Assembly (NCBI RefSeq): GCF_003967195.1
Contig: NZ_AP018725.1
Location: 620,001-684,000, forward strand
From: Sulfuriflexus mobilis
GTDB lineage: Bacteria > Pseudomonadota > Gammaproteobacteria > AKS1
Direction of reading: 5' to 3'
DNA: 64,000 nt
Shown here: one piece after another, positions 3,923 to 61,548 of the stretch
Layout: the number at the start of each line of letters is the position of its first letter
How positions within the stretch are numbered: the stretch's first letter is position 1
Program-made: the position numbers and the translations under genes
Notes under the pieces: generated by a model
What the model saw: only the letters and a program-made list of their open reading frames with translations
Databases searched by the model: none
Told to the model about the DNA's origin: nothing

Positions 3923-4393
3923 TCAGCTATGTTGATCCCAGATAAGGTTAAGTAGCTCAATGTTACCTGTATGCAACTTGACGGGGCAGTCTGGACAGCC
4001 ATTGGAAGTGGGTTTGTTTTTACAGCCACGACATTTATTTATTACCCATTTTGCCTGCGCAAGTTCGTCTTTAAGGCGTTCAAGTTCGCGCGCCTTCGCG
4101 GTGATTTCATTTATTTCAGTTTCAAGTTGCGCGGAAACCTTGTTACTGCTTTCGTCACCGGTCTTGCAGGTTTCCCTGAGTGAGGCGATCAGATGGATGG
4201 ATTCAAGAGAAAAGCCATTTTTTGCCAGGTGCAGGATCGACCTGAGACGAGAAAGGTGACGCTCAGTATAAAGCCGCGTTCCGCCCGCCGTGCGCGAGGG
4301 TCGGAGCAGGCCCTCTTCCTCGTAGTACCTGATGGTGCGTACGGTTATAGCAAGTAAGTCTGCTATTTCACCAATTTTATATTCATTCATCAT
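3923..4393 (-). CDS. MerR-family regulator with a four-cysteine C-terminal cluster
   Basis: A 156-residue protein. Residues 4-70 form a MerR winged helix (KIGEIADLLAITVRTIRYYEEEGLL), followed by a dimerisation coiled coil (about 85-118) and a C-terminal effector segment with Cys at 121, 124, 133 and 136 (CRGC...CPDC), a likely metal or thiol-reactive site; another Cys is at 76. It is the last gene of a three-gene operon with a TusA-like protein and a small alpha-beta protein. Upstream of that operon lies a promoter with 19-bp spacing and a central dyad, as MerR activators need, so it probably regulates its own operon. The start could be 4393 or 4390; a TTG at 4396 abuts the previous stop. Confidence 0.85.
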   Translation of the reverse strand: MMNEYKIGEIADLLAITVRTIRYYEEEGLLRPSRTAGGTRLYTERHLSRLRSILHLAKNGFSLESIHLIASLRETCKTGDESSNKVSAQLETEINEITAKARELERLKDELAQAKWVINKCRGCKNKPTSNGCPDCPVKLHTGNIELLNLIWDQHS

Positions 4394-4396
4394 CAA

Positions 4397-4642
4397 CTAC
4401 TGTTTTTGTATCCAGAACCGGAACAGGCCTTCTTTTTCCTCTTGCCTTAAGAGTGTGTGCTGAGTCATGGCACAATAGGCAGGAATGTCCCTGAGCATTG
4501 AACTCTTATCAGAGATGACCAGGGCCACCTCGCCGACGACGAATGTCTTAAATACCTTGGTCAACTCGATCACGGGGGCCGAACAACACAGCCCCTTGAT
4601 GTCAACGACATGGTCGTGCGGCATGGTCATCGCCGCCTTCAC
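4397..4642 (-). CDS. TusA/SirA-like sulfur-carrier family protein (non-canonical active site)
   Basis: An 81-residue protein with the TusA fold signature: DIKGLCCSAPVIELTK at residues 14-29, a central VALVISDKSSMLRDIPAYC, and a terminal FRFWIQK strand. TusA proteins carry sulfane sulfur on the Cys of a CPxP motif. Here the motif is Cys19-Cys20-Ser-Ala-Pro, so one cysteine is kept and the first proline is lost; Cys57 is a third candidate. Its ATG overlaps the stop of the upstream gene (ATGA), implying translational coupling. With a Cys-rich MerR regulator in the operon, a role in sulfur or metal handling is a reasonable inference. Confidence 0.75.
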   Translation of the reverse strand: MKAAMTMPHDHVVDIKGLCCSAPVIELTKVFKTFVVGEVALVISDKSSMLRDIPAYCAMTQHTLLRQEEKEGLFRFWIQKQ

Positions 4643-4866
4643 ATCCCCAGCAATTGTGCCGTGTAGCCACCGGCCTTAACCTGATGGAGCAGCTTGTGCG
4701 AATCAATCTGCTCGGGGTTGTAGGCGACCAGCAATAAATGCGGGGTTTCCTTATTGAAGCGGGGTGCAACGACACCATTGGATTGTCGCAGCACGTCCTC
4801 GAGGGCGGTCCGCTCGCTGGCGGCAAGTGTTTCATTTACATGAATAATCAGATCGGCCAGATGCAT
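4639..4866 (-). CDS. small HMA-like alpha-beta protein of the MerR operon
   Basis: A 75-residue protein with a strand-helix-strand-strand-helix-strand pattern (LIIHVNETL, ALEDVLRQSNGVV, HLLLVAYNP, SHKLLHQVKAGGYTAQLLGM) like heavy-metal-associated ferredoxin-like domains, but without the CxxC metal motif. It is the first gene of the operon and overlaps the TusA-like gene by four bases. A GGAGG Shine-Dalgarno is present upstream. The function is unknown; the HMA-like fold is inferred from pattern only. Confidence 0.6.
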   Translation of the reverse strand: MHLADLIIHVNETLAASERTALEDVLRQSNGVVAPRFNKETPHLLLVAYNPEQIDSHKLLHQVKAGGYTAQLLGM

Positions 4867-4902
4867 GCTTCAATCCTCCATCACGACAAATGTAAGAGGT
4901 TT

Positions 4903-4933
4903 TAAGTATCTGACGTTAACGGTAGATTGTCAA
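4903..4933 (-). promoter_or_regulatory. MerR-type promoter and operator
   Basis: On the minus strand a consensus -35 TTGACA (4933-4928) is followed after 19 bp by a -10-like TACTTA (4908-4903). The spacer is an imperfect 20-bp dyad (4908-4927, 16 of 20 positions symmetric, centre GTTAAC). An overlong 19-bp spacer filled by a dyad is the hallmark of MerR-activated promoters. It lies about 40 bp upstream of the first gene of the operon that encodes the MerR protein. Confidence 0.75.
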
Positions 4934-4977
4934 GTCTGCAAAAGAGGCCGTGGCCTATGCGTTGTCGCAGCGATGGG

Positions 4978-5421
4978 TTATTTAGGCTGTTTGAACAGGT
5001 AGGGCCCAAGCTCAGTTCGTACGTCATTCTCAAGAAGGCCGCATTGAACCTTGATACCCGCCCGAGTGAGGATATCTATGCCTGCCCCGCGATTCCTCGG
5101 GTGAGGGTCTATGATGCCTACATAGACTTCTTTCAGGCCACGCCTCACAAGCTCTTCTGCACAAGAGGGTGTGCGGCCATGAAATGAACAAGGTTCGAGG
5201 GTGACAAACGCAACAACATCATCAAGCGGGCCTTGTATCTGGCTGAGTGCCATGGCCTCTGCGTGAGCCAGGCCGGGTTCGTTGGTGTGACCGGCTGAAA
5301 TGACTGTTCCGTCCCTGACCAATACACAGCCAACGGGCGGGTTGGGCTTGCACTTACCAAGTGCCTTTCTCCCTTCATGCAGGGCCTCACGCATAAAATG
5401 TTCTGCTTGTGGTTTGTCCAT
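4978..5421 (-). CDS. RibD-like deaminase, deaminase domain only
   Basis: A 147-residue zinc-dependent deaminase. HAE at residues 53-55 and PCSFHGRTPSC (Cys78 and Cys87) give the zinc ligands and proton shuttle, with the PCxxxxRTPxC form typical of the RibD deaminase (diaminohydroxyphosphoribosylaminopyrimidine deaminase, riboflavin synthesis). The usual C-terminal reductase domain of RibD (about 200 residues) is absent, and no other rib gene is nearby. It may act with a separate reductase or on another substrate. No FMN riboswitch is apparent upstream. Confidence 0.8.
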   Translation of the reverse strand: MDKPQAEHFMREALHEGRKALGKCKPNPPVGCVLVRDGTVISAGHTNEPGLAHAEAMALSQIQGPLDDVVAFVTLEPCSFHGRTPSCAEELVRRGLKEVYVGIIDPHPRNRGAGIDILTRAGIKVQCGLLENDVRTELGPYLFKQPK

Positions 5422-5626
5422 GATTATTTCTTAAGGTTAAGGTCAGTGTTGATCAGGGTTCTTCGGCACAGTCAGCGGAATGTCGGGCGTGCCCCTCACT
5501 TGCATTGTATGTCAAATGTTCCTTTCTGTATCTGACACGGATATGCTAATGCCTGACTCAACTTCAGGCAACGCAGGACTCGCACGCCTGGACCGCATGG
5601 TTAACCCTGGTTGGGAGGAGAAAGGC

Positions 5627-6082: not shown

Positions 6083-7303
6083 TCAGTCGGGTATCGTGAC
6101 CTTCAGGCGATCACCATAACACCCGTAGAACCACTTCATGACAAAGGGGGGTAACAAGGTGGTGAGCGCAATCACGATCACCATGCCGGCATAGATTTCA
6201 TTACTGAATATACCACTCACCCGGCCCAACTCGGCGAAGATGAGGCCAACCTCACCGCGCGGTATCATGGCCATACCGATCGCCCAGCGTGCCGGCCATG
6301 ACTCTTTGATAAGAAATGCACCAATGAGTTTGCCGGCGACAGCCGCGAGCAACAGCGACAGCGAGAAACCCCAGATAAAGCTCGAGTCCCAGTCGATCTC
6401 ATGCAAGTTGAGGGAAAGACCTACAAATACAAAAAATATGGGTGTAAACAAATGTACGATGGGCCGCATCTGGTCCTCGATGCGGTGGGCAAAAAGCTCA
6501 TCGGTATGCAGGGCGATGCCCATCGGCAGGAAAAAACGTCTCGACAGGGCCAGCCCCGCGGCAAAGCCGCCAAGTAATTCCGGTGCGCCCAGGGCATGGG
6601 CTAGCCACGCACAGAATAACACCAGCGAGACGATGGTGGTAGGCAGCAGGCCGGGGATGCCGCTGACAGCATCGAAACGCTTGATGAGCAATGAAACCAT
6701 TTTCGCCGCTACGGGGGCGAGGACAAAAAATGCACCTACAAACATCAGTACCTTGCCCGCATTGATCAGGTTTATGCCGCCACCAATGGAGAATTCATAG
6801 AGTAGCGCCAGCAACACTACGCCGAGTACGTCGTCGAGTACCGCGGCACCAAGGACGATCTGCCCCTCGGAAGAATGTTGGCGTTTGAGATCAGAGAGTA
6901 CGCGTATGGTGATACCGATGCTGGTGGCCGTGAGCGTGCCACCGATGAACAGTGATACCAGCAGTGACAGGCCGAACACCCAGTAACCCAGTGCAAAACC
7001 CAATAGCAGTGGGAATATAAATCCCGCTATCGCCACCACGAAGGGTTTCAGGCCGGTGCGCACCAGACGTTTGACGTCGGTCTCCAAACCCACCTCGAAG
7101 AGCAGCAGGATAATACCGATCTCCGCCATCAGTTTGATGGCCTCGACCGGCTGGATCCAGCCAAACAGGCTTGGCCCCAGTACCACCCCTGCAAAGAGCT
7201 CGCCGATCACGGAGGGTGCTCGCAGGCGAGTCGCGAGTTCAGCGAACACGCGCGCCGTCAGCAGAATGACAAGCAGGTAAAGAAAGAAGTCATGGGTTGC
7301 CAC
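6083..7303 (-). CDS. Kef-type cation:proton antiporter (CPA2 family)
   Basis: A 406-residue membrane protein with about twelve hydrophobic segments. The N-terminal LRAPSVIGELFAGVVLGPSLFG, the central GAAVLDDVLGVVLLAL with its acidic pair in the membrane, and the IPRGEVGLIFAELG segment are hallmarks of CPA2 Na/K:proton antiporters. No C-terminal nucleotide-binding RCK domain is present, so it is the membrane subunit alone. It starts with GTG at 7303 and lies 18 bp after nhaA, probably co-transcribed, adding a second antiporter to a Na+/pH-stress operon. Its ion cannot be told from sequence. Confidence 0.85.
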   Translation of the reverse strand: MATHDFFLYLLVILLTARVFAELATRLRAPSVIGELFAGVVLGPSLFGWIQPVEAIKLMAEIGIILLLFEVGLETDVKRLVRTGLKPFVVAIAGFIFPLLLGFALGYWVFGLSLLVSLFIGGTLTATSIGITIRVLSDLKRQHSSEGQIVLGAAVLDDVLGVVLLALLYEFSIGGGINLINAGKVLMFVGAFFVLAPVAAKMVSLLIKRFDAVSGIPGLLPTTIVSLVLFCAWLAHALGAPELLGGFAAGLALSRRFFLPMGIALHTDELFAHRIEDQMRPIVHLFTPIFFVFVGLSLNLHEIDWDSSFIWGFSLSLLLAAVAGKLIGAFLIKESWPARWAIGMAMIPRGEVGLIFAELGRVSGIFSNEIYAGMVIVIALTTLLPPFVMKWFYGCYGDRLKVTIPD

Positions 7304-13133: not shown

Positions 13134-13378
13134 AATCAGTTTCCTCCCTGATATCTAATTATAGTTACGGTGCATAGCTGTCCTCTCAATAAGGTACTGG
13201 ATAGCGGCTGAGAGATTAAATACAGCAGTGGATTTCGGTTAACTACCCGCCCCTTATCAGTCTCACTCCGCATAAATCCCTGTCAAGTCGAAGGTTATTG
13301 CGGCTGCCTGTTTTGCTGCAAAATACGCTATAATCCGTCCTTGTTCATACGGCTCCACCGCCATTTCAGTCGTTTCCT

Positions 13379-37770: not shown

Positions 37771-38856
37771 ATGGCTGATAACCCCTACATTAAAAAACTC
37801 ATTCGTGACGAAGTACGCGCCCTCTCGGCGTATCACGTGCCGGACGCAAGCGGTTACATTAAACTCGATGCCATGGAAAATCCCTACCAGCTTCCCGCCG
37901 AACTCGTCGATGAATGGCTTGACGTGCTGCGTGAGGTCGAGCTGAATCGCTACCCGGACCCGGGGGCACGGCCTCTCAAGGCCCAACTGCGCAAGGCCAT
38001 GCAGATCCCGGCCGATATGGAGCTGCTGCTCGGTAACGGTTCGGACGAGATCATCCAGATGATCTGCATGGCGCTGGCCAAACCCGGTGCCACGGTGCTG
38101 GCCCCCGAGCCAGGTTTTGTCATGTACCGCATGATCGCGTTGTTCTGCAACATGGACTACATCGGTGTGCCATTACATACGGATTTCAGTCTTGATATGG
38201 ACGCCATGCGTGCCGCGATAGAAGAGCATCGTCCGGCCGTGACCTTCCTCGCCTGGCCGAACAACCCGACCGGTAATTTATTCTCCGAGACCGATGTGAT
38301 GGAGATCATCGAACACGCCCCCGGTCTGGTCGTGCTCGACGAAGCCTACACAAGTTTTGCCGGGCAGAGTTTTATGGCGCGGCTGGGCGACTACGACAAC
38401 CTCGTTGTTATGCGCACGGTCTCCAAGTCGGGCCTCGCCGGCCTGCGCCTGGGTTACCTCGCCGGTCCGGCGGCGTGGCTGAATGAATTCGACAAGGTAC
38501 GCCTGCCCTACAATATCAATATTCTTACCCAGGCCAGTGCCGAGTTTGTTCTAAGTCATACCGATGTGCTCGATGCCCAGGCCGCCAAGCTGCGCGCCGC
38601 ACGTGGTGAGTTGTTTACGGCTATGCAGGCCATCGACGGTATCGAGCCTTACCCGAGCGCCGCCAACTTCATCCTCTTCCGCACCCCGGCGGGGCAGGCC
38701 ACGGCCATCTTCGAATCACTGAAGGCACAAAACGTGCTGGTCAAGAACATGCAGCCGGTCGGCGGCATGCTGGCAGACTGCTTGCGCGTCACCGTCAGCA
38801 CTCCGCAGGAAAACACCGCCTTCCTCACCGCCCTCAGGGACAGCCTGGCCGGTTAG
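37771..38856 (+). CDS. hisC: histidinol-phosphate aminotransferase
   Basis: A 361-residue PLP enzyme. The PLP lysine lies in RTVSKSGLAGLRLGY, with LLGNGSDEIIQMI, AWPNNPTGNLF and VLDEAYTSF as the other family motifs. It transaminates imidazole-acetol phosphate. It is the last core gene before the cassette array, in the same orientation as all cassettes. Confidence 0.95.
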   Translation: MADNPYIKKLIRDEVRALSAYHVPDASGYIKLDAMENPYQLPAELVDEWLDVLREVELNRYPDPGARPLKAQLRKAMQIPADMELLLGNGSDEIIQMICMALAKPGATVLAPEPGFVMYRMIALFCNMDYIGVPLHTDFSLDMDAMRAAIEEHRPAVTFLAWPNNPTGNLFSETDVMEIIEHAPGLVVLDEAYTSFAGQSFMARLGDYDNLVVMRTVSKSGLAGLRLGYLAGPAAWLNEFDKVRLPYNINILTQASAEFVLSHTDVLDAQAAKLRAARGELFTAMQAIDGIEPYPSAANFILFRTPAGQATAIFESLKAQNVLVKNMQPVGGMLADCLRVTVSTPQENTAFLTALRDSLAG

Positions 38857-39000
38857 TTTGACCGCTATGGCCCGGCCAGGGATGGAAGGCCAATAGCCAG
38901 CCCCCTGCCCGTTGTGCTATACATAACCACATAATAATACCCGGCTAGTCAGAAATACGGGCAGTCACGACCCTGACCACCTTGCTTTTTGGCTCAAGAT

Positions 39001-39105
39001 TTTTAGTACTAAAAGGCCCGATAAAAAACATTAAGTCATTGATTATAGTAAAGTCTGTTTTTATCAGGGCCTAAAAGGCCTATTTGAAAGGGGCGTTTTA
39101 GGCCC
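39001..39105. other. overlapping inverted repeats at the proximal edge of the cassette array
   Basis: The 260-bp gap after hisC holds no gene. It contains a perfect palindrome TTTTAGTACTAAAA (39001-39014); arm A (39011-39029) pairs with arm B (39057-39076) with small bulges; arm B ends in GGGCCTAAAA (39067-39076), which also pairs perfectly with arm C TTTTAGGCCC (39096-39105). A:B and B:C stems are mutually exclusive, like an attenuator, but no T-run follows arm C. It may also be the remains of an integron attachment region. Confidence 0.5.
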
Positions 39106-39106
39106 T

Positions 39107-39372
39107 CTAATTATAGTTGGATAGACGTAAGAAAAATCGTATAGAAATATAAGTGAAACACCGATACAAGGGACGTTGAAAAAATGATAAAAAGTGAAGT
39201 GTACGACGCTGCAACACAAACTTGTTTGGTGTTGACACTGGCGAACACTTCACAAGAAGGATTCAACTAAGCCTATGTCGTGCTTCATTCCATTCCTATC
39301 GCTTAATAGCTACGCAATCCAACTACTCGCTAGACGCGACGCACTATCGTGCGCACGTCAGCTTAATTGTTA
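39107..39372 (+). repeat. 266-bp repeat, copy 1 (small cassette)
   Basis: Identical to 41289-41554 except at one base (A at 39125, G at 41307). Probable cassette limits are GTTGGAT (39116-39122) and the G of GTTATAA (39369). It carries a 28-codon frame and a 115-bp attC. The ten bases before GTTGGAT are also shared. Confidence 0.9.
39184..39270 (+). CDS. 28-residue peptide of the duplicated cassette (copy 1)
   Basis: A short frame (MIKSEVYDAATQTCLVLTL then ANTSQEGFN) with an AAGGGA site about ten bases upstream. Its TAA overlaps the attC start, as with many true cassette genes. It has no recognised family. It may be a real peptide, or the cassette may be essentially non-coding. Confidence 0.35.
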   Translation: MIKSEVYDAATQTCLVLTLANTSQEGFN

Positions 39373-39375
39373 TAA
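39261..39375 (+). other. attC site of duplicated cassette, copy 1
   Basis: R'' ATTCAAC (39261-39267) and R' GTTATAA (39369-39375) bound 115 bp. Inner segments pair imperfectly: CAACTAAGC with GCTTAATTG, and GTCGTGC with GCGCACG. The junction lies 9 bases before the next start codon. Confidence 0.75.
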
Positions 39376-39378
39376 GCC

Positions 39379-39807
39379 ATGACATACACAGTAAGTAAAA
39401 TTGAAGCAGCAGCAGATCAACTTGATTGGGCTATAAAGCTTTTTCTTGATCATAAAGCATATGTGCCGGCAATAACTCTTGCAGGTGCAGCTGAAGAAAT
39501 TGTAGGTGAAGCGGTTTCAAATGATGCAGCATTTCATAAGCTAAAAGAAATTCTTTCTGAAAAAACGGGCATAGAAGGAAAAGTCATTTCTCAAGAATAT
39601 CTTAATAAGACAAAAAACTGGCTAAAACATTGGAAATGTTTAAAAGATGATGAAACCATAGAAATAGAACTTGAAAAAGAAGCCATTCAGTACCTAGTAA
39701 GAGCAATGACAAATTTTGTTACTCATGATAATGCAGTTACTAGTGAAACACCGAGGTTTTATGAATGGCTAGTTGAGAACAAAAAGGAATTAATAAATGG
39801 CTTATAA
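39379..39807 (+). CDS. cassette protein, HEPN-like helical family of unknown function
   Basis: A 142-residue all-helical protein (AADQLDWAIKLFLDHKAYVPAITLAGAAEEIVGEA ... NWLKHWKC ... YLVRAMTNFVTH). The pattern of an N-terminal amphipathic helix, an Ala-rich helix and an N-W-x-K-H segment matches a widespread uncharacterised family of small helical proteins that resemble HEPN domains. The ATG lies 9 bases from the cassette junction with no Shine-Dalgarno of its own, and the stop codon is part of the attC. The codons are AT-rich, unlike the core genes. Confidence 0.75.
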   Translation: MTYTVSKIEAAADQLDWAIKLFLDHKAYVPAITLAGAAEEIVGEAVSNDAAFHKLKEILSEKTGIEGKVISQEYLNKTKNWLKHWKCLKDDETIEIELEKEAIQYLVRAMTNFVTHDNAVTSETPRFYEWLVENKKELINGL

Positions 39808-39879
39808 CAAGGCACTCCAGTTGACCACCAAAAGCGGCGCTTTGCTTGCTTTTGGGTCAACTGAGCTTAATCGTTAGCC
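39802..39879 (+). other. attC site
   Basis: Begins TTATAAC (39802-39808) and ends GTTAGCC (39873-39879), 78 bp. AGTTGACC pairs with GGGTCAACT inside. The left end GGCTTATAAC complements the start of its own cassette (39369-39378). Confidence 0.9.
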
Positions 39880-39899
39880 ATAATAATTAAGGAGAGAAC

Positions 39900-40793
39900 G
39901 TGGCAATTGAATCACCACTATTTCAAAGCGCAATGGAGTTGCTTGGGCACTCTTTTTCGCACTTCAATGGTTCGAAAGAGCTAGATAGGAAGCTGGTAAT
40001 ACTACATCTCGCTAATTCGATAGAACTCATTCTTAAGGACTTGGTATTAGATGCGGGGGAGTCTATTTACAAAGGGCCAAAAGAAACGATAACCATTCAT
40101 GGCTGCATTAAGTCATTGGAAGATAAAGATATAAAAATACCTTTCTTGAATAAAATAGAATTATTAATTGATGAAAGAAATGCCCTGCAACATAGGTTTG
40201 GCTCACCGAATGAATTAACTGCAATATTCTATATGAATATATCGCAAGAATTTTTTAGGGAAATCCTCAAAGAGCACTATGACCTAGAATATGAAGAAGT
40301 TATTACTCAATTTGCTGAAGAAAAAGAATTATTAGCATTTCGCATGAGAGAACCCAGCGATGATGCAGAGTTAGAGAATCTTAAAAAGCTATCAAAAGTA
40401 CACCCTTTAGGAGCATTGCTTTCAGCAATGACCTACTTAGAAAAGAACATACTCGACTTTTCAGAGAAAGCCGGGCTAGGTGAGGATTTCAGAAGAAGGC
40501 CATACTGGCATATGATTTCTCATCGTTTTCTAGAGAGATTCGATGTTATAACCCCAGATGAACTTAGGGAAAAAATGGATGATACTAGGCGCTTGCGCAA
40601 TATGGCAGCCCACGGAAGAAAAGAGCCAACTAGAGATGAAGTTGCAAGGGCAATAAGCTCCATTGAAGAATTTGAGAAATTTCTTAGCACTATAGATATG
40701 AGTGCAGTAGAGAAAAAAGTAAAAGCTTACTTAGAAGAACGTGAAGAAGAACGCAACCAGAGAACACTCGAACTAGAGAAAGAAATTGGCTAA
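39900..40793 (+). CDS. cassette protein with two HEPN-type Rx4H motifs
   Basis: A 297-residue mainly helical protein. Two segments carry the R-x4-H signature of HEPN ribonucleases: RNALQH (Arg93-His98) in the first half and RNMAAH (Arg233-His238) in the second, each after a long helix, suggesting tandem HEPN-like domains. The C-terminus is a charged coiled coil. Such proteins are common in toxins and abortive-infection systems, but no activity is shown here. It starts with GTG after an ideal AAGGAGAG site, and its stop lies in the attC. Confidence 0.8.
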   Translation: MAIESPLFQSAMELLGHSFSHFNGSKELDRKLVILHLANSIELILKDLVLDAGESIYKGPKETITIHGCIKSLEDKDIKIPFLNKIELLIDERNALQHRFGSPNELTAIFYMNISQEFFREILKEHYDLEYEEVITQFAEEKELLAFRMREPSDDAELENLKKLSKVHPLGALLSAMTYLEKNILDFSEKAGLGEDFRRRPYWHMISHRFLERFDVITPDELREKMDDTRRLRNMAAHGRKEPTRDEVARAISSIEEFEKFLSTIDMSAVEKKVKAYLEEREEERNQRTLELEKEIG

Positions 40794-40874
40794 CAATAGG
40801 GTCAAGTTGACTGCCAAAAGCGGCGCTCCTTTCGTCGCTATGCTTTTGTCAGCAACTTACCCAAAACGTTAGGT
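40788..40874 (+). other. attC site
   Basis: Begins GGCTAAC (40788-40794) and ends GTTAGGT (40868-40874), 87 bp. AAGTTG pairs with CAACTT, and GGGT with ACCC. GGCTAAC is the exact complement of its cassette start GTTAGCC at 39873. Confidence 0.92.
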
Positions 40875-40895
40875 GTCAGAATAAAAGGAGCACCA

Positions 40896-41282
40896 ATGGA
40901 CGAAGAAATAATTATTGGTTTTTCTGTGTCGCTAATAGGTGGCGGTATAGGTGCATGGTTGTTTCTGAAATTACTGCGCAAATGGATGCGCTTAACAAAA
41001 GAAGCTGAAGAAAATAGTGGTTCACGCGCAGTTCCATCATGGATTACTGGTGTAATTGAACGTTTTTTCTTTACCTTATTAGTGCACTTTCAGTTGCCTG
41101 GTGTGCCAGCTGCTATGCTGATTTGGCTCACTCTAAAAATGGTAACAAATTGGAATAGCCCTTTAAGAAAAGAAGCTGATAAAAATCACACACGGCTAGC
41201 TTTCTCGGCACTATTAGCTGGACTTATTTCATTAGGGTTTGCGGTTTATGGTGGTCTAATCTCACGTGGAGATATTCTCTAA
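40896..41282 (+). CDS. cassette-encoded small membrane protein
   Basis: A 128-residue protein with predicted membrane helices at about 6-25, 53-72 and 101-122 and charged loops between. No family is recognised. A strong AAAGGAG site precedes the ATG. Its own attC is reduced to a few bases because the second copy of the small cassette follows at once. Confidence 0.8.
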   Translation: MDEEIIIGFSVSLIGGGIGAWLFLKLLRKWMRLTKEAEENSGSRAVPSWITGVIERFFFTLLVHFQLPGVPAAMLIWLTLKMVTNWNSPLRKEADKNHTRLAFSALLAGLISLGFAVYGGLISRGDIL

Positions 41283-41283
41283 T

Positions 41284-41298
41284 GACACCTAATTATAG
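41284..41298 (+). other. truncated attC of the membrane-protein cassette
   Basis: GACACCTAAT (41284-41293) is nine-tenths complementary to the start of this cassette (GTTAGGTGTC at 40868-40877), so it is the left arm of its attC. GTTGGAT of the next unit begins only five bases later, so the rest of the site is missing. Confidence 0.65.
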
Positions 41299-41554
41299 TT
41301 GGATAGGCGTAAGAAAAATCGTATAGAAATATAAGTGAAACACCGATACAAGGGACGTTGAAAAAATGATAAAAAGTGAAGTGTACGACGCTGCAACACA
41401 AACTTGTTTGGTGTTGACACTGGCGAACACTTCACAAGAAGGATTCAACTAAGCCTATGTCGTGCTTCATTCCATTCCTATCGCTTAATAGCTACGCAAT
41501 CCAACTACTCGCTAGACGCGACGCACTATCGTGCGCACGTCAGCTTAATTGTTA
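41289..41554 (+). repeat. 266-bp repeat, copy 2 (small cassette)
   Basis: Second copy of 39107-39372, with 265 of 266 bases identical and the same orientation, 2182 bp downstream. Probable cassette limits are 41298 (GTTGGAT) and 41551 (G of GTTAGCC). Confidence 0.9.
41366..41452 (+). CDS. 28-residue peptide of the duplicated cassette (copy 2)
   Basis: Identical in sequence to the frame at 39184-39270, with the same upstream AAGGGA and the same overlap of stop codon and attC. Its reality as a protein is uncertain. Confidence 0.35.
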   Translation: MIKSEVYDAATQTCLVLTLANTSQEGFN

Positions 41555-42819: not shown

Positions 42820-43557
42820 ATGAAAATAATCATTATGAAGAAGGATAGGCCGAAAAAATTTAATAGAGATGTAAGCAAACACCCAGCACTAAGGCGTAAG
42901 TGGAGGTTGTGGTTAAAGCATTTGAAATCGAACCTCACAGAGTTATTGGGAGATAGGGAGATATTCTGGGGATTACAAGATATCGCTAAAGAAAACCCAG
43001 ACATATTAACACCAGGGGCGTTATTTGATTGGATGTGTAGTAACTATACAACTTCTGTAGCAGTGGGTGCGCGTAGGTTTACAGATCAAAGCAAGAACTC
43101 ACACTCACTATGGGTGATGTTGTACCAAATACTGGAAAACCCAGGTGTTATAAATAGAAGAGCACATATATCTCTTTATACTAAAGTGACGCGCGAGATG
43201 GATATGGGGAATCTAACATTTAACTCTGTAGTTGGTAAAGGAAAAGACTATTTAAGTCAACAACAGGTACGCTCAGACTTAAGAAAATTAGAAGTTGCTA
43301 ATGAAAGAATAAAAAGATTTGTTAATAAGAGAATTGCACATTTCACTAATAAAGGTTCGATAAGAAAATTACCAACATTTCATGAATTAGATAACGCCTT
43401 AACCACAATTGATGAATTACTATGCAAATATAACTTGCTGCTAAATGCTGAAGGAACAACTTCTATGGAAGCAACAAGACAATATGACTGGACTGAAGTG
43501 CTTAATAAGGCTTGGATTAAGACGCAAGATGGGTTGCGCCATAACAAACATGCCTAA
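42820..43557 (+). CDS. cassette protein with AbiU2-like HEPN segment
   Basis: A 245-residue helical protein. The segment LEVANERIKRFVNKRIAHFTNKG (residues 158 on; Arg171 and His174) followed by a helix with TIDELLCKYNLLL resembles the AEPN/HEPN domain of AbiU2-type abortive-infection proteins and fixes the likely family. Residues RKWRLWLKHL near the start are basic. The ATG at 42820 directly follows the core site with no Shine-Dalgarno; an ATG at 42835 is an alternative. The stop lies in the attC. Confidence 0.7.
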   Translation: MKIIIMKKDRPKKFNRDVSKHPALRRKWRLWLKHLKSNLTELLGDREIFWGLQDIAKENPDILTPGALFDWMCSNYTTSVAVGARRFTDQSKNSHSLWVMLYQILENPGVINRRAHISLYTKVTREMDMGNLTFNSVVGKGKDYLSQQQVRSDLRKLEVANERIKRFVNKRIAHFTNKGSIRKLPTFHELDNALTTIDELLCKYNLLLNAEGTTSMEATRQYDWTEVLNKAWIKTQDGLRHNKHA

Positions 43558-44150: not shown

Positions 44151-44777
44151 ATGCCCAGTCAGGAAATTAACGAATACTATGATGCGACGGAATCTCGAGA
44201 GATTCGTTCTGATTTGACTTTTGCGGTTAATATTGTGGGCGATCCTAAGATCGCTATAGATTGTGGTTGCGGAGCTGGCGCTGACATAGAGTACTTATTG
44301 GCATCGGGTTTTAAAGTGTACGGCTTTGATATAGAGGAAGAATCTATATCAAGATGTAAGAAACGCTTTAAGAATAACAGTGATGTCATTCTCTCAAAAG
44401 CCGGGTTTAGTTCGTATAACTATCCGCGGGCATCACTGGTAGTCGCCGACGCAAGTCTCTTCTTTTGCCCAAAGACGGAGTTTGACACTGTTTGGCGCAA
44501 TATATCTGAGTGCCTTTACCCCAATGGGATTTTCTGTGGTTCCTTTTTAGGAGCTGAAGATACTATGGCTGGGCCAATATATGATAAGAGTGCTTATTGG
44601 CCTGAAATATCAGTTTTTGATGAGAAAGAAGTGAGAGCTATTTTTAAAGGCTATGAAATTTGTCATTTTACTGAGCATAAAACATCTGGAAAGACCCCAC
44701 AGGGAATTCCGCATGACTGGCATATCTATTCGGTCGTTGCAAAGAAATCTGACAATTCAAGCAAGAAGGGTGCGTAA
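44151..44777 (+). CDS. class I SAM methyltransferase (cassette)
   Basis: A 208-residue methyltransferase. Motif I AIDCGCGAGADIEYLL (residues 35-50) binds SAM, followed by FDIEEESI (motif II acid) and SLVVADASLFFCP (motif IV). The substrate is unknown, possibly a small molecule as in tellurite-resistance TehB-like proteins. No clear ribosome site precedes the ATG. AT-rich codons match the rest of the array. Confidence 0.8.
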   Translation: MPSQEINEYYDATESREIRSDLTFAVNIVGDPKIAIDCGCGAGADIEYLLASGFKVYGFDIEEESISRCKKRFKNNSDVILSKAGFSSYNYPRASLVVADASLFFCPKTEFDTVWRNISECLYPNGIFCGSFLGAEDTMAGPIYDKSAYWPEISVFDEKEVRAIFKGYEICHFTEHKTSGKTPQGIPHDWHIYSVVAKKSDNSSKKGA

Positions 44778-44828
44778 AAGTGTCCACAAAAATGGTTCTA
44801 GTTCACCCTCTTTTTCAAATCGTTAGGC
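44778..44828 (+). other. remnant attC (right half only)
   Basis: GTTAGGC (44822-44828) is a normal R' core, but no matching RYYYAAC is seen in the 44 bases after the methyltransferase stop. The left part of the site is lost or diverged. Confidence 0.55.
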
Positions 44829-61195: not shown

Positions 61196-61548
61196 TGCGG
61201 GAGTCGGCCAGGCGATCGCTGTTCCGCAAGGGATGGAGGAAAGTCCGGGCTCCATAGGGCAGAGTGCCAGGTAACCCCTGGGGGGCGCGAGCCTACGGAA
61301 AGTGCCGCAGAAAATATACCGCCTAAGCGACCTCGGTCGCCGGTAAGGGTGAAATGGTGCGGTAAGAGCGCACCGCGCCGCTGGTAACAGTGGTGGCAGG
61401 GTAAACCCCACTCGGAGCAAGACCAAATAGGGGAACATCGATGCGGCCCGCATTGTTCCCGGGTAGGTTGCTTGAGGCACGCGGTGACGCGTGACCCAGA
61501 TGAATGATCGTCCTCGACAGAACCCGGCTTATCGGCCGACTCCCACCT
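61196..61548 (+). ncRNA. rnpB: RNase P RNA (class A)
   Basis: The 5' end (GGGAGTCGGCC) pairs with the 3' end (GGCCGACTCCC), forming helix P1. Conserved blocks GAGGAAAGTCCGGGCTCC and AGGGTGAAATGGTGCGGTA, CAAATAGGGG and ACAGAACCCGGCTTATCGG are all present in order, about 350 nt, the normal bacterial length. TATAAT at 61187-61192 fits a -10 box just before the start. It lies between rsmI and mraZ; a T-rich stretch follows. Confidence 0.96.

Follow-up and report, generated by a model that had tools for sequence, protein, structure and literature searches.

The DNA analysed here (hereafter the window) is a stretch of 64,000 bp from Sulfuriflexus mobilis, in which an integron-type array lies 3' of hisC (37771-38856). 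The array starts with an attI-like site at 38999-39116 on the + strand, which ends in CTAATTATAG, has its crossover at 39116/39117 and has no adjoining integrase gene. It is followed by a small cassette (copy 1, 39117-39369, +), cassette 2 (39370-39873), cassette 3 (39874-40868), cassette 4 (40869-41298, +, with an ORF at 40896-41282) and a second copy of the small cassette (copy 2, 41299-41551, +). No TIGR02249 match indicative of an integron integrase was found in the window, and tblastn with one IntI gave only matches with E-values of 0.23 and 0.40. In three other genomes of the genus, inspection by eye of the few hundred bases 3' of hisC revealed no integron. Two cassette genes are possible defence genes on the basis of weak matches, namely the gene at 39900-40793 (PDC-S19; PADLOC, E 1.1e-7) and the gene at 42820-43557 (HEPN_AbiU2; Pfam, E 2.7e-5, below the cut-off). 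The window also contains a Bacterial RNase P class A RNA at 61200-61547 (Rfam, 342.5 bits).

The small cassette had been noticed before as a duplicated unit. This duplication is real, and it can be refined to a unit of exactly 253 bp with a single mismatch between copies 1 and 2 (A at 39125, G at 41307). The original prediction proposed a search for the same unit of about 250 bp in other arrays, and this search yielded a third copy in the same genome. Copy 3 starts at G000:C1:237939, matches copy 1 at 253 of 253 bases and lies 421 kb from the window copies. It heads the cassettes of an integron that has an intI gene, immediately 3' of the attI region of this integron. Including flanks, the repeat within the window is larger than the unit (39107-39372 and 41289-41554); the 10 bp CTAATTATAG that precede copies 1 and 2 are attI-derived and fall outside the 253 bp. 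The 5' flank of copy 3 is unlike that of the window copies, save for the last three bases. The downstream neighbour differs at each of the three copies, and in all three places it is a cassette bearing a long ORF. The G+C content of the unit is 42%, compared to 54% for the window.

DNA relatives of the unit were absent from plasmids, phages, viral contigs (one exact 28-mer) and 56 related genomes, the own genome included. Among 369 genomes of the class, the DNA search gave matches in three, i.e. the own genome and two genomes with matches of 27 and 30 bp only. After inspection of their surroundings, these two short matches were judged to be chance.

The boundaries of the unit follow from a comparison of its flanks. 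The bases 5' of copies 1, 2 and 3 are CTCTAATTATAG, ACCTAATTATAG and CCTATATACTAG, and the bases 3' are TTATAAG, TTAGCCG and TTAGATT, respectively. Because the flanks diverge outside G/TT, the ends of the unit sit at G/TT, as in cassettes. With three copies that all end exactly at the crossover points, the cassette itself is above chance.

Copy 1 has a short attC at 39317-39372, of which the bottom (-) strand folds. It has R'' (ATCCAAC, 39317-39323) on one side and R', at the crossover 39369/39370, on the other, with a small-looped stem between them. Three candidate R'' boxes occur in the last 135 bases of the cassette, and for the box at 39315-39323, 8 of 9 positions can pair with the start of the same cassette. 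A long attC with R'' at 39258-39266, which would contain the stop codon of a 28-codon frame in the unit, was rejected since it pairs at only 6 of 9 positions and the fold is against it. When a longer stretch was folded, the same short hairpin recurred and the outer box was unpaired with R'. The earlier claim that the stop codon lies inside the attC therefore had to be given up: pairing and fold favour the short attC, and the stop is 46 nt upstream of its R''. In the circle form, where the cassette start pairs with R'', the bottom strand folded at -19.5 kcal/mol (z -4.46; none of 200 shuffles as low), with R''/R' and L''/L' paired and an unpaired spacer between them. The circle-form attC sites of cassettes 2, 3, 5 and 6 gave z-scores of -5.37, -6.32, -3.44 and -4.94, respectively. 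The linear form of copy 1 beside its neighbours folded more weakly (DNA parameters; z -2.11 for a short and -1.10 for a long stretch). Among shuffles in which the ends were kept, 5 of 1000 combined an R'' match of at least 7/9 with an inner hairpin of equal or greater stability. The attC alignment was made of 11 sites.

Cassette 4 lacks an attC body. It starts with TTAGGTGTCA, and the reverse complement TGACACCTAA (R'') occurs at 41283-41292, followed by only TTATAG up to the crossover. Its last 10 bases, CTAATTATAG at 41289-41298 (+), are identical to the 10 bases that end the local attI-like site, such that cassette 4 is of the ΔattI type, in which the attC is replaced by the 3' end of attI. 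This 10-mer occurs three times in the window, at 13155, 39107 and 41289. Homologous recombination and a larger mobile unit were considered for the 10 shared upstream bases, and were set aside for the ΔattI tail. Together, these features suggest that an integron integrase would have turned the unit into a circle via its folded attC, and then integrated it at attI sites. Copy 2 would then have entered first at the attI-like site of the window, followed by cassette 4 with its ΔattI tail, cassettes 3 and 2, and copy 1. It is possible that copy 2 arose by duplication of another kind.

Several other attI-like sites are present in the genome. A DNA search with the attI-like site of the window identified G000:C1:300226-300342 (91% identity, E 3.0e-40), G000:C1:2299912-2300028 (74% over the matched part, E 2.9e-15), which separates an intI gene from the first cassette after it, and 1469045-1469094 (84% over 50 bp, E 9.3e-9). 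Seven copies of the 12-mer CTAATTATAGTT are present in the genome, and none of its reversed control. Two further sites were missed by the DNA search: a site at 1975 kb (G000:C1:1975381-1975402), based on the 12-mer and alignment only, and the attI of the 237.9-kb integron, based on its position and alignment. Cassette-like ORFs lie 3' of the attI-like sites, as judged by reading rather than by a systematic attC count. Only two intI matches in the own genome were above the cut-off, at 236895 and 2300065. Hence, at least two attI-like sites (at 300 kb and 1469 kb) have no adjoining intI. Those attI-like sites that lack an adjoining integrase gene are similar to the attI found at 2.30 Mb, in an integron with intI.

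The two intI genes, at L010:835-1818 (-) and L011:9047-10036 (+), are 64% identical. Both carry the same 50-bp insertion, which differs at two positions between its copies, sits immediately 5' of the presumed catalytic tyrosine codon and breaks the frame. With both genes disrupted in this way, the unit would have moved either earlier or by another integrase. A 20-mer of the insertion, searched with up to three mismatches, occurred exactly in the genome only at both intI genes, and once more with three mismatches. Searches of plasmids, phages, genome_contigs (29-mer with flank) and viral contigs (19-mer) detected nothing similar to the insertion, and the 369 genomes gave one partial match outside the own genome, to a similar sequence. 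It may be a REP-like repeat.

Other repeats were noticed in the same regions. Both integrons carry, within an attC-like region, an insertion sequence that has HTH_Tnp_1 and rve frames (L010 ~4166-5475; reverse in L011), and the two are 99.7% identical over 1310 bp. A 37-bp remnant (92%) of the end of this insertion sequence is present in the window at 44770-44806. Palindromic repeats with GGGGTCAGAGCACAG, MITE-like by eye, occur in or beside cassettes at L010 ~6362-6421 and at L062 ~3980-4035 and ~4960-5010.

The coding capacity of the unit is small. The predicted 28-codon frame is present in copy 1 at 39184-39270 (+), from ATG at 39184 to TAA at 39268-39270, and in copy 2 at 41366-41452 (+). 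The predicted AAGGGA was likewise found, at 39168-39173 (+), 10 nt before the ATG, and is a possible ribosome-binding site. The frame encodes MIKSEVYDAATQTCLVLTLANTSQEGFN and is unchanged in all three copies, as the single difference between the copies falls outside it. Its length, however, is what chance provides: of 2000 shuffles that keep dinucleotides, 29.6% had an ATG frame of at least 28 codons on the same strand, and 50% had one when both strands were counted. Moreover, with 84 coding bases of 253, the frame does not fill most of the cassette. No ORF longer than 210 bp lies inside the unit; the longest ATG/GTG/TTG frame wholly inside it on the + strand is the 28-codon frame, and frames on the - strand reach up to 51 codons. 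A 58-codon TTG frame runs from copy 1 into the next cassette, and its counterpart in copy 3 extends to 393 codons through the gene of the neighbour.

We found no relatives of the 28-residue frame in Pfam, PHROGs or plasmids (tblastn), and among the 369 genomes of the class it occurred in the own genome only, three times. Candidates obtained with the back-translated frame (590 stretches in genome_contigs, and 144 and 9 stretches in viral contigs) included none that was confirmed by tblastn, in a set from which the own or near-own records are possibly omitted. A 27-bp stretch at the start of the frame matched genome G111 (93%, E 1.7e-4 for one genome, where 369 were searched), in a frame that resembles ribosomal protein L14; this match was taken as chance. 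The resemblance to a true cassette gene that had been suggested is thus not borne out, given the chance-level length, the stop codon outside the attC and the lack of a relative in these searches. Most likely, the 28-codon frame is incidental.

The original prediction of a small mobile integron cassette, maybe non-coding, is supported by the three copies, their exact ends and the attC fold, and the cassette is probably gene-less. We consider it likely that the unit is a 253-bp integron cassette that lacks an ORF, carries a short attC of its own and was placed at attI by an integrase, and in which the frame is incidental and the cargo is absent or has a weak cis effect. This reading is favoured because the three near-identical copies have differing flanks outside the G/TT points, because the attC folds in its circle form like those of four other cassettes of the array (z -3.44 to -6.32), because an equally good R'' match and hairpin arose in just 5 of 1000 shuffles, because an intI gene adjoins copy 3, and because the frame is at chance level and without relatives. 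Any cargo function would most likely be none, or a weak cis effect on the next cassette, exerted through low-level promoter activity or through a structured leader or spacer. Against a reading of the unit as a pure passenger stands an inner hairpin that is rarer than chance and that a passenger does not need. Neutral drift alone may not account for the recurrent placement beside attI.

One alternative is that the unit is a promoter cassette that drives whichever cassette lies downstream and is retained at the first position for that reason. This is a reasonable possibility, although we would give it less than an even chance. It agrees with the long-ORF cassette downstream of the unit in 3 of 3 places and with the AT-rich composition of the unit (42% G+C against 54%). 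Furthermore, in the available part of PMC11014356, promoter activity is reported for most of 30 gene-less Vibrio cassettes, with sense-strand activity in 25 of the 30 (summed per-species counts). These Vibrio cassettes, however, are about two times longer (491-666 bp). In our scans, moreover, no sigma-70-like site reached the threshold at 38850-39600, where shuffles expect 1.4, and the best matrix score in the unit was 6.9, a value also attained by 226 (+ strand) and 270 (- strand) of 400 shuffles each. The best nearby candidate site, TTGAAA-16-TCTAAT at 39084-39111, is located upstream of the unit, in attI-like sequence. Since PMC11014356 describes the Vibrio promoters as not predictable in silico, these chance-level scans still leave room for a promoter.

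Alternatively, the cargo could be a structured RNA. The strongest inner feature of the unit is an imperfect palindrome of 60 nt with perfect 9-bp outer arms at 39194-39253, which overlaps the 28-codon frame and could act as a small RNA, or as a leader with a stabilising or regulatory effect on the array transcript. As RNA, this hairpin folded with z-scores of -3.13 (+ strand; 0 of 200 shuffles) and -3.63 (- strand; 1 of 200), and an equally stable 68-nt window was found in 3 of 300 shuffles of the cassette body. The whole 253-bp unit folded with z -2.95 (0 of 200 shuffles). Yet, a perfect inverted repeat of at least 9 bp also occurred in 11 of 300 body shuffles, and the hairpin has no terminator-like T run. 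No Rfam family matched the unit at gathering score, and a lax search gave two matches far below it, with E-values of 0.012 (38982-39100, mostly upstream of the unit) and 0.37. The three copies are near-identical, with none diverged enough to show covariation of the arms. Overall, we regard a structured RNA cargo as unlikely.

We assign a still smaller chance to adaptation of the unit to the attI-proximal position, where it would serve as a non-coding 'cap' that conditions transcription of the array, with several attI platforms sharing integrases in trans. A true gene for a 28-residue peptide is highly improbable: its ATG with AAGGGA upstream and its intact frame in three copies (too alike to speak on selection) stand against a length at chance level, a stop codon outside the attC and the lack of relatives in Pfam, PHROGs, plasmids and the 369 genomes other than its own.

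The unit is among the smallest cassettes with exactly known limits, which follow from the ends common to its three copies in one genome. It heads three different neighbours, and hence offers a clean object for the question whether empty cassettes are passengers or regulatory elements. The frame is of less interest than the setting of the unit, which comprises integrase-less attI-like sites, a chromosomal ΔattI cassette and two intI genes with the same disruption.

Parts of this setting can be compared with known systems, in so far as the available parts of the cited papers describe them. The window array resembles CALIN (PMC9024848) in having attC sites without intI, but unlike CALIN it retains an attI-like site; the same source describes attI sites beyond class 1 as poorly described and undetected. 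Cassette 4 ends in R'' plus the 10 last attI bases without an attC, as do the ΔattI-type cassettes of class 1 and 2 integrons (PMC12901181), where tails with 8-12 bases ahead of the crossover are the prevalent kind and recombination between the attI L box and R'' has been proposed. Here, in contrast to the class 1 and 2 integrons of that paper, the cassette belongs to a chromosomal array in an environmental-type genome with another attI. According to the same text, identical cassettes are seldom found in tandem (in 28 of 1,685 class 1 integrons, and once in 143 V. cholerae genomes); the copies described here are not in tandem.

With the ORF-less cassettes of oral metagenomes (PMC6557892) the unit shares, by description, the lack of an ORF. 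It can also be compared with the gene-less cassettes of Vibrio, defined in the available text of PMC11014356 by having no ORF over 210 bp and making up 6% to 49% of cassettes. Like the Vibrio gene-less promoter cassettes, the unit has an attC, lacks a credible ORF and lies 5' of gene cassettes. It differs in its length (253 bp versus 491-666 bp), the length of its attC (57 bp versus 101-127 bp), its non-Vibrio host, its presence in three copies in one genome and the putative nature of its promoter. The unit is a small new example of this known kind of empty cassette.
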